Source: Mya arenaria (taxonomy: Eukaryota > Mollusca > Bivalvia > Myida > Myidae). Taken from it: DNA of 64,000 nucleotides. Shown here one piece after another: positions 49,501 to 58,500 of the stretch. The position numbers and the translations under genes are program-made. The notes beneath the pieces are model-generated. The model did not search any database. It worked only from the letters and a program-made list of their open reading frames with translations, and was not told where the DNA came from. The DNA is taken from contig NC_069135.1 of assembly GCF_026914265.1 (NCBI RefSeq), forward strand, positions 19,012,548-19,076,547. Direction: 5' to 3'. Within the stretch, counting starts at the first letter, position 1. Every line of letters begins with the position of its first letter.

Positions 49501-52500
49501 GGGCTATTTACTGCTACAGTAAATCAAGAACCTGTACAAACATTATTAGGGCTATTTACTGCTACAGAAAATAAAGAACCTGTACAAACATTATTAGGGC
49601 TATTTACTGCTACAGAATATCAAGAACCTGTACAAACATTATTAGGGCTATAAACTGCTACAGTATATCAAGAACATGTAGAAACATTATTAGGGCTATT
49701 TACTGCTACAGAATATCAAGAACCTGTACAAACATTATTAGGGTTATAAACTGCTACAGTAAATCAAGAACCTGTACAAACATTATTAGGGCTATAAACT
49801 GCTACAGTATATCAAGAACCTGTACAAACATTATTAGGGCTATAAACTGCTACAGTAAATCAAGAACCTGTACAAACATTATTAGGGCTATAAACTGCTA
49901 CAGTATATCAAGAACATGTAGAAACATTATTAGGGCTATTTACTGCTACAGTAAATCAAGAACCTGTACAAACATTATTAGGGCTATTTACTGCTACAGT
50001 AAATCAAGAACCTGTACAAACATTATTAGGGCTATAAACTGCTACAGTATATCAAGAACATGTAGAAACATTATTAGGGCTATTTACTGCTACAGAATAT
50101 CAAGAACATGTACAAACATTATTAGGGATATTTACTGCTACAGAAAATCAAGAACCTGTACAAACATTATTAGGGCTATTTACTGCTACAGAATATCAAG
50201 AACCTGTACAAACATTATTAGGGATATTTACTGCTACAGAATATCAAGAACCTGTACAAACATTATTAGGGCTATAAACTGCTACAGAATATCAAGAACC
50301 TGTACAAACATTATTAGGGCTATTTACTGCTACAGAATATCAAGAACATGTACAAACATTATTAGGGCTATAAACTGCTACAGTATATCAAGAACCTGTA
50401 CAAACATTATTAGGGCTATTTACTGCTACAGTAAATCAAGAACCTGTACAAACATTATTAGGGCTATTTACTGCTACAGAATATCAAGAACCTGTACAAA
50501 CATTATTAGGGCTATAAACTGCTACAGTATATCAAGAACCTGTACAAACATTATTAGGGCTATAAACTGCTACAGTATATCAAGAACCTGTACAAACATT
50601 ATTAGGGCTATTTACTGCTACAGAATATCAAGAACCTGTACAAACATTATTAGGGCTATAAACTGCTACAGTATATCAAGAACCTGTACAAACATTATTA
50701 GGGCTATTTACTGCTACAGAATATCAAGAACCTGTACAAGGAAATACAGGAGTCAAAAAGTGCTAAGGATGGAATCTTAGCTTCTTAGTTAATGCAAAAA
50801 ATGCATTTTGCATTTGTTTCTGTTTGTCTTTATGTAATGTATGCATATGCTGATAACAAATTATGTTTAAATTAACTGAGAAGTACAGGACTAAAAAACT
50901 ATGGATTGCATCTAAGCCTCTGATTTAATGCAAAAATTGCATGTTACCTTGTAAAAAGTCCCTAGATCGTGTAAGTGCATACAATTTTGATCTCTGAAAG
51001 GGCAATAAGTATTTAAATGTAAAACATGATTGTCTATTCTTCAGATTTATAAACAATCTATTACACATGCATCTGTACTTTGCACATAGCAATAATGAAG
51101 CAGTTTCACAATCTTCATGACTTTAATTATCGCTATTCTTTTAACAGTAGCTTGAAACTGCAAGAAATGGAGGGAAAATACAGCCAATTGCACTGTCTCC
51201 AATCAATAGCCAATCAATACCTCACATCCATATACACTTAAAACTACTCCAAGTTATTGCAGAAATGGCCACCTTGTAAAACCATAGTGACATGCACAAC
51301 TCCAGTTACCTTCGATTTCAATACTTTCTGGCTCACAGTTGCAGGTTGCAGCTGCTGCACATCAATATATACATGTATGGTAAAACCTTAGTAACATGCA
51401 CAACTCCAGTTTCACAATGATTATTCCTTCGTTTTTCCTCCGTATTTTCTTGCTAACATTTGCACATTGCATGTGCACATCAATCAAATATCTTGTCAAC
51501 TTGGTTTGAGTGTAACAAATAAGTATTTATAACACAAAGTTACATCAAATACTCTTTCTTGAATTAAATTGCATTTAGCAAAAGAAACAAAGTACAAAAA
51601 CTTAAAAATGAAAATGAAAAGTTATGGGGTATTAATTCTTCATAAATCATACAGATTTGCAACATATTGTGGCTAATTAATAATCGTATATATTCATTTT
51701 ATATTGCATTTCAATGACAGCGCTATTTGGTCAAGTGAACATCTATTTTGGCCCGATATCTTATAACAAAACAAATGAAAATTGTCTTGTTCATCATACA
51801 AGTAGTCATTTACTGTTTTTCTTTATGAAAAATTAGTTCAATTAATTTTACATGTGGGTGGTTTTCAAAATAATGAGGCAAAAGTGTGACATAGGGGTTG
51901 AAAATTCAAACCCAGTTTTCATGATTGTCACCTATTTTACATGAAAGTAAATACTTCAAATTACACAGAAACAACTTTGGGAAAGTATCAGGAAATACAA
52001 ATAAAAAAATATTTTGACCTTAAATCCAAATATTGCAAACATTTCTTACAATATGGTTGATTTATAAGTGTCTTATGACAAGAACCTTGCATAAATCATA
52101 TGCTTTTTCTGAATTATATAATCAGTAATTGGTACCTGTGTGTAGACATGTGCATAATAACCCAGTTGTTTAAGAAAAATAAAAAAATAAACACATTTTG
52201 TCTAAATTTGAAACCAAAAATAAATTGTTACCTCACAAAGTTTTTGCAGTAATTACAACAAGAATCAAATAAGGGAAAAATCTACATTAACCTCACCTTA
52301 TGCATCTTTATAGACCACATACCAAATAACAAGAATGTATTGTAACTTATAATTGCCAAATTTTTCATTTCAAAATTGAACTATTTTTCGGTGCACAGGG
52401 GGACACATATTGAAGGCCAATATAATACGCATTATTTTTCACTTTCATGTTAATAAAATAATGATTTGTGATCAACTTAAGACATTTCTGTGTATATGAG

Positions 52501-55500: not shown

Positions 55501-58500
55501 TATAGAAATCTGACAACTAACAACCGAAAAGGTCCACAGGGGACATTTTGGGGTAATAAGTCATGCATCTGAGTTACGGACAAAATAATGTATGAAATAG
55601 TAAAATATGTTATTTATATAAAGCTGGCACTGGTTAAAGTTATTAAAATAACATAGTAATTTAATATAAATAGTGCTTAAATGGAATGGTAGTGTTCTCA
55701 ATGTGAATCGATTATTCTATCTTATTTTTTAAATGAATGGGGGTCCGTCATATGACATTAAAATTTGGTTAAGATAATACATATTTTTTTATTTGAAGTA
55801 TGTTTTTTAAATTGAGAAAGGGTTAAGTTACATGAAAAACAATAAAAAAAAATACTTAATCATTCAGTTTCAAAAAATAAAACACATTTGCATAAAGGTC
55901 TTCATGTAAAATGTCACACTTTTTTGGGTGCACAGGGGACAAATTTAGCAACATATTCTTACATAACTTTTTTGCTGATTGAGCCATCCATTTGAAACTC
56001 AACAATTTTCTTAACAAGATTGATTGGCCCATAATGTGCCTGCTAACACTTTCCAAAAGTGAAAGGAATAAAAGTTAGGAGAGATAAAAGAAAAAGCCTC
56101 ATTATTTTGAAAACCACCCATGTGCAATTACACAAACTATGGCTGTCATGCATGATCAAAGCCCTTGGAACATTTTCTTGTAACGACAACAAAACCACTG
56201 TGCTACGAAGGCTTAACGGTTGGAATATTTCAGCTATATATCTAACTTGGTAATATCACGTGACAACATCGACTATCCAGTCGCCCATAAGGAATAAATT
56301 TTTCTAGGTAAACATACCTAGTAATCTTTTTTAATGGAAAAATACCAAAAAACAGCGAAAAATAAATTAACTGTAAACTATGTGGTACTTCAGTTAATAA
56401 GTTTCAATGCATTGTACTCATCGATACCAAGTTTATGTCAGTTTTCGCTATTTCATCATACCCAGTACAGCCCCTTTAAACCTCTCCATCAAGGCAGACT
56501 ATGCTGCAGCAACACAACTGTGGTCATCAAAGTGGACACCTTTAAGATTTGATGTTCGGCATACTCTTCATCAAAGGTGTCCAGATGGATAATCAAGGGT
56601 GTACAACAGCAATTCTGAATGATGGTGATGGTTTGGAGGATAAAGACAGTCTTAAACTGTAAATAAACAATATCTAAAGGCAGTATCAATCCTTTGAATG
56701 ATTTCAAACATATCCCAGCACCACTTTTTAAGAAAAATATAGGAAAAAAAATCCAAAATCTAGGAAAATATAGGAAATATAGGTGGTTTTGAAAAATATA
56801 GGAAATTTCTCAAAAATATAGGAAAATATAGGAATATAGGAATTGGTTGACAGCCTGTTATCATTGTCTTTGCGCCCCAGGCTGTTGCTAGACTTGATGT
56901 TTGATTTTCATGAAGACCTCAAAATAAACCTTTTACATAGTGTAGAAACCTTTAACTGTTTTTATTTAGACAGCACAAGAAATTTGTTATACATTGTGTA
57001 TCTTATTTCATCCCTCTTTGTAAGTAGCTTACGGTGAAAATCTATATGTTTTGATTGACAACATCAATATCGATCCAACTATTTATGGAAGGTTAATATT
57101 GGTTGTACCGGGTATTAATTCTTTTTCATTAACTTGCCACTGGTATATTACTTTAAGCCCAATATAGAATACATGGTAGTCTGATAATAATTATTATGCT
57201 CGCTAATGATCACATTCAATGGCACATCTCTCAGTATTCAATCAGTCTAAAATCAGTTTGCGCTTGAACAGACAAAACATGTTGTTACATAAAGCATTTA
57301 TATGTTCAAGAACTGCGTTTCAACTGGAAGCTTTAATTAAATTCTTAGACTTGAATATATAATTCATTAATCATTCAGCTTGCTACAGTCATACATATTA
57401 TATAAAATTATATTATTTAATGAATACAAATCTTGAAAGGCAGCATCTAACACTTGAGCTCAGACAAATTCATTCAAGTGTAGTTTAAACAAAAATGTCC
57501 TGTTTTCTAAGTAACTTATATTGTTGATGTCCTTATACATGTAGCTGCACTTTCTTTCATGTATTACCATTTCTGTAAAACAGTGAACTGTACAGTCATA
57601 GAAATTATACTTTTTTAAATGAACAAACCCGAATTCTTATACTATTGCTTGACATCAAATTTTTGTACAAGCCCTGCTATATAAAATTCAGAGTTTGAGC
57701 AAGCCCGGAAGACTGTATAAGCACTTAAGTCTATAAGGACAATGGTGTCATCTTATCAAGGAGCATATGTCAAAATATTGAAAGATCATGAATTTCAATT
57801 AAAGACAAAGTGGGCGTCACAAAAGGAATTGAATTTTTTACAAGCAAAATCAAATCAACTTAACATCAACTGATCAATTAAGTGATAAGTTTCGAAATGT
57901 TACAACCAATCAGAAATTTTGCTTCCATAAAAAAATTCTGATCAAATGTGTCTGCCCCAATCGGATCGCCATGGGATTCTGATTTACCCATTTTACTTAT
58001 AATGAAATCAACCGCCATATTTTCATTAAGTCATTAATTGGTTAAATTTCATTATTATAAAAAGGCAACATATTCAATAGGCAGCGGGATAAAGTCCAGC
58101 TTATGCAGATTTAATGTTTTAGTAAAGCAAAAAAGACAAAATGGCCACAGTAATAAAATGGCTGTTTTGGCCTTAAACAACTGCCTTTAAAAATAACCAC
58201 AACCCGACTGATTATTTTATCCTCTCAGGTGGCCATATTAATTTTACGATACAGATTAATGGGTAGGGGAATAGTACAAAAACTATATTTATCTACCAAC
58301 CCTGATCCTTAAACAAGTGGCATGGGTTAGGCCAAATAACTCTCTTTTATTGTGGCCAAATTTTTACATAATCTACACCAGGACTCATCAAAATGCAGCA
58401 ATGATTCATAGATCTACATTGATATTTCAAATTTTCCTTTGCCTTTCTTATTTACTCCCTCCTCTACATTTACCGAAAGTAGCCTAAATAAACCAACACA

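Follow-up and report, generated by a model that had tools for sequence, protein, structure and literature searches.

What kind of element occupies the 4.3-kb interval between perfect inverted repeats in a 64,000-nucleotide stretch of the genome of the soft-shell clam Mya arenaria (assembly GCF_026914265.1, contig NC_069135.1, positions 19,012,548 to 19,076,547; hereafter the window), and is it the relic of a transposon that once encoded its own transposase or a member of a family moved by an enzyme encoded elsewhere? A preliminary description, made from the sequence alone, had placed its ends at window positions 51856 and 56119 on the strength of perfect 24-bp terminal inverted repeats (TIRs) and the tetranucleotide ATGT on both sides, had put its size without a nested transposon at about 3.2 kb, and had read it as a once-autonomous element with a basic, broken open reading frame (ORF) and with no superfamily that could be named. 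The ends are exact, the size comes to 3195 bp and no superfamily could be assigned; the once-autonomous origin is a different matter, and we return to it below. The element is one copy of a repeated, dispersed family of DNA transposons, and this family is very probably young, non-autonomous and of the cut-and-paste type, with a length of ~3.2 kb.

The two 24-bp TIRs are inverted and identical at 24/24 positions, divergence begins immediately inward of them, and the element as a whole has the termini GG...CC (GGG...CCC). With up to 3 mismatches allowed, the 24-mer is found at only two sites in the window, both of them ends of the element, where shuffled sequences lead one to expect 0.00. The genome (1,216 Mb in 18 contigs) was searched with the first 201 bp and the last 201 bp of the element, and further copies sharing these termini were found: the best 40 of at least 122 candidates for the 5’ query match at 97-100% over 200-201 of its 201 bases, and the best 40 of at least 101 candidates for the 3’ query match at 95-100%. 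Among the matches listed, 19 of the 40 5’ ends pair with a 3’ end no more than 15 kb away, and the spacing of these pairs is 2815-3536 bp in 14 of the 19, the rest measuring 741, 4264 (the window copy), 6293, 7364 and 8006 bp. Of the other 5’ matches listed, 39 in all, the best 20 were fetched and read, with the window copy as the 21st. All 20 carry the left TIR (≤1 error), as expected of copies chosen by their 5’ end, and 14 also carry the right TIR (≤2 errors) within the 9.5 kb read, which together with the window copy makes 15 two-ended copies.

Duplication of the target is likewise a property of the family, as the recurrence of 4-bp duplications in copies other than that of the window makes plain. 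An exact 4-bp duplication borders 11 of the 15 two-ended copies, and a match over 5-8 bp borders none; when the last bases of one flank are set against the first bases of the other, three bases match in 1/15 copies and four in 11/15. Two of the copies, L024 and L025, have identical flanks and thus represent one insertion that was later duplicated, so that the count of independent duplications becomes 10 of 14. These ten are ATAT (6), ACAT (2), ATGT (1) and AAAA (1); the self-complementary pattern AYRT therefore accounts for nine of them, against ~3% expected (calculated by hand from the local base composition, the sequence around the element having ~31% G+C). TTAA occurs in none of the 11 matching duplications.

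In eleven copies, of which three are partial, substitutions relative to their own majority consensus (3201 bp) amount to 1.24-1.99%, a closeness that suggests recent movement, with an estimate of age that leans low because each copy feeds the consensus and because copies were selected for fetching by how well their 5’ end matched that of the window copy. The other ten of the 21 copies (L015-L019 and L024-L028) entered neither the consensus nor the estimate of age, on account of inserts or deletions, a missing right end or membership in an older branch, the last consisting of L024 and L025, which lie 7.6-7.7% away. Extra sequence other than the insert nested in the window copy is present at differing points in L012, L015, L018 and L028. 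As to their distribution, L023, L024 and L025 all lie within 0.2 Mb of C4 (37.21-37.39 Mb), a region that was probably duplicated after insertion, given that both the flanks and the target duplication are the same in L024 and L025; L023 is a separate insertion. Four 3’ ends of the family, all on one strand and each 96% identical to the query, lie within 0.7 Mb of C9 (36.98-37.67 Mb), a cluster that is possibly a segmental duplication.

The consensus has no visible gene, and the enzyme that moves the family is therefore probably encoded outside it. No stop-free run in the 11-copy consensus exceeds 99 residues, and among 200 dinucleotide shuffles the mean longest run is 89 residues and 42 reach 99. 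The stop-free runs of ≥200 residues listed for the two-ended copies are all situated in the flanks and none within the element, and when the window and the 20 fetched loci were scanned by regular expression for catalytic motifs of the HGKG and SDG types, nothing was returned. No transposase belonging to the element was seen in the 21 copies read, the profile search having covered 4 of 25 long frames beyond the aligned parts.

Copies that are longer or have only one end were tried as the autonomous form. The 8.0-kb copy L026 was rejected, since its size is due to two insertions: an extra 3.9 kb that contains part of a transposase with a match to PF13843 (DDE_Tnp_1_7, the piggyBac family; E 1.5e-38), and another 0.9 kb that likewise interrupts the aligned element. 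As for L016, L017, L021, L022, L027 and L028, none of the six (0/6) shows a second TIR over the 9.7 kb read, even with up to 6 errors allowed. Beyond the aligned part, five of these one-ended copies have 25 stop-free runs of ≥95 residues between them and L028 has none; of the four runs searched in Pfam, three have no family and one matches the ligand-binding domain of nuclear receptors (PF00104, E 6.2e-13; L016:7136-7457 on the reverse complement of the stored locus), which lies ~4.6 kb past the last aligned base and is taken as host flank.

What the element does contain, and the preliminary description did not mention, is an iterated 15-bp motif, GGTGCACAGGGGACA, present in the consensus at five sites in one orientation and at a sixth in the other (with 1 mismatch). 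All six matches to its first 14 bases (≤2 mismatches) in the window fall inside the element, where 0.05 would be expected, and the 15 two-ended copies together hold 71 matches within the element and 0 in ~93 kb of flank. Iterated internal motifs in DNA transposons are often binding sites of the transposase or of host factors. Motif changes relative to the older copies number 1/75 (L024) and 2/75 (L025), against 7.6-7.7% elsewhere, which is only a hint of selection, as the two copies are non-independent and the numbers small. In L012 the second motif, at element position 888, is inverted with 1 mismatch, perhaps through a small local inversion; among the other two-ended copies (14) it is forward in 8 at 855-888 and in L010 at 744.

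Taken as a non-autonomous family, the element could have moved as follows. A DDE/D-type transposase encoded elsewhere would bind the TIRs, perhaps also the iterated motifs, excise the element and join it to a target at which the cuts would be staggered by 4 bp, preferably at a palindromic AYRT (ATAT, ACAT or ATGT), and the filling of the gaps would leave the 4-bp duplication. The window copy would later have been struck by a TA-specific transposon.

Several observations weigh against this account. The right end is missing within the 9.5 kb read from 6 of the 20 fetched copies, and 4 of the 15 two-ended copies have no matching duplication (L010, by 1 mismatch, and L012, L013 and L018). The motif is no better conserved than the rest of the element among the 11 copies (18/959 vs 560/32847 differences), and its layout, mostly in the same direction, is unusual, unlike the symmetric one expected for simple end-binding sites. 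Sampling by best 5’ match skews the age toward youth. Movement in trans is judged from what the 21 copies read lack, and a gene could be split into short exons or be carried by the two longer copies (6293 and 7364 bp) outside those 21.

Among elements of known kinds, those most like the family in general build are non-autonomous TIR elements (large MITE-like or internally deleted forms; MITE, miniature inverted-repeat transposable element), with which it shares TIRs, a fixed duplication length, many near-identical copies and the lack of a visible gene, although a typical MITE is shorter than 3.2 kb and the iterated internal 15-bp motif is an addition. As to which enzyme might serve it, Sola elements make 4-bp target duplications and encode a DDD transposase. 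Descent from a Sola-type element is a tentative proposal: the duplications are 4 bp long and none is TTAA, but the likeness is one of duplication length and host group, and no transposase that could be set beside the defining DDD one was seen in the copies read. The host group does fit, since in the accessible text of a mollusc survey Sola is confined to bivalves, with 95 Sola1 and 105 Sola2 elements (PMC10294476).

Descent from a Kolobok-related or other known superfamily (Kolobok, KolobokP or Academ) is doubtful. According to the accessible text of one study, Kolobok has 5’-RR/YY-3’ termini, a rule that the GG...CC ends fit, but duplicates TTAA (PMC9587614), whereas the 11 matching duplications of our family are mostly AYRT and never TTAA. 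KolobokP, as described in the same text, is rich in bivalves and has 3-5-bp duplications around solo repeats, which would accommodate our 4 bp, together with terminal direct repeats of ~450 or 660 bp (PMC9587614); no long terminal direct repeats are present in the element, and the longest direct repeat of the region, 91 bp, is located in the nested insert. Academ has expanded in bivalves, as far as the available part of the mollusc survey goes (PMC10294476). Two further groups differ in their ends or targets: piggyBac duplicates TTAA (PMC9587614, accessible text), which the element does not, and EnSpm/CACTA has 5’-CAC..GTG-3’ termini and a 3-bp duplication (PMC12730594, accessible text), against GGG...CCC and flank matches of three bases in 1/15 and four bases in 11/15 copies here. 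Where an element has no gene, its class in Repbase is set by the length of its target duplication and by the first 11 bases of its termini (PMC4455052, accessible text). Neither the TIR nor the motif sequence turned up in the literature searched, and titles and abstract openings of the transposon-superfamily literature named no family with these ends.

It is unlikely that the element is instead a dead autonomous transposon, in which a K/R-rich (lysine/arginine-rich) stretch on the minus strand would be the decayed N-terminal DNA-binding part of a transposase and the catalytic part would be lost or lie in broken frames. There are indeed basic stop-free stretches on that strand (54574-54729 and 54714-54881), and the consensus has 9 stop-free runs of ≥60 residues against a shuffle mean of 4.9, a mild excess that 6/200 shuffles reach. 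The stretch also resembles the start of long basic proteins common in invertebrate genomes. However, the tract is 70% purine on the minus strand versus 52% overall, and its K/R density is equalled in 52/300 shuffles of the same purine-rich stretch; differences to L025 in the K/R frame run 12/101, 11/103 and 5/102 by codon position, fewest at position 3 and so the opposite of coding constraint. The K/R-rich frame is thus unsupported as a transposase remnant, because shuffles match its density and codon positions run against coding. Two stop codons in the frame occur in the consensus and also in both older copies, L024 and L025, and the longest consensus run is, at 99 residues, to be set beside the shuffle mean given above. 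Pfam searches at E up to 10 gave 0 families for two consensus peptides from the K/R side; a scan of viral contigs with the 51-residue K/R piece, a weak test, gave 18 pattern matches and 0 confirmed relatives; and the catalytic-motif scan was empty. The once-autonomous origin with a basic broken ORF that the preliminary description had proposed is therefore not upheld, and a non-autonomous family accounts for the data no less well than a dead autonomous element does. We consider it improbable that the partner transposase represents an undescribed superfamily that recognizes the 24-bp TIR and the internal GGTGCACAGGGGACA and inserts at a palindromic AYRT with a 4-bp stagger.

A young family whose ends are exact, whose duplication is fixed at 4 bp and which carries a distinctive internal motif offers clean bait for finding its transposase, in a phylum where, according to the accessible text of the survey, many repeats are unclassified or fragmentary (PMC10294476). 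In the transmissible cancer of the soft-shell clam, DNA transposons are reported to be enriched for copy-number gain (8 of 45; PMC10663159, available text), and the family could be looked for among them.

Features of the element in the window are collected in the table. The transposon described earlier as nested in the window copy is indeed an insertion: it is flanked by TA and has no counterpart in 16 of the 20 fetched copies, all 16 of which are alignable across that point, the other 4 being unaligned there. The label “Tigger” given to it is a tentative one, based on the TA and the CAGTCAAACC-type termini; two ORFs within it match no Pfam family at the Pfam cut-off.

Table. Features of the transposon copy, in window coordinates
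Feature	Position	Strand	Basis or remark
Left target site duplication, ATGT	51852..51855	.	Read off sequence
Whole element copy	51856..56119	.	4264 bp; 3195 bp once the nested insert is removed (both TA kept)
Left 24-bp TIR, GGGTGGTTTTCAAAATAATGAGGC	51856..51879	+	Repeat comparison
Motif site 1, degraded in window copy	52390..52403	+	Motif scan
Motif site 2, GGTGCACAGGGGAC	52731..52744	+	Motif scan
TA left of nested insert	53490..53491	.	Read off sequence
Nested TA-flanked transposon, 1069 bp	53492..54560	.	TA both sides; missing from the 16 of 20 fetched copies alignable there
TA right of nested insert	54561..54562	.	Read off sequence
Purine-rich tract yielding K/R-rich stop-free stretches	54574..54881	-	Not supported as coding
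Motif site 3, sole inverted one, 2 mismatches	55010..55023	-	Motif scan
Motif site 4	55366..55379	+	Motif scan
Motif site 5, 1 mismatch	55531..55544	+	Motif scan
Motif site 6	55927..55940	+	Motif scan
Right 24-bp TIR	56096..56119	-	Repeat comparison
Right target site duplication, ATGT	56120..56123	.	Read off sequence

Elsewhere in the window, a tandem array of 58 copies of a 48-bp unit (47929-50739) has stop-free frames of 318, 223 and 401 residues, all in the same direction; they stay open since the length of the unit is divisible by 3, and they are probably not coding. A second tandem array, with a 53-bp unit (16159-18057), stands amid strong GC skew (0.41 over 16001-18000). Finally, a single 767-residue open frame at 11585-13888 gives a near end-to-end match to Bicaudal-D (PF09730, E 2e-169).

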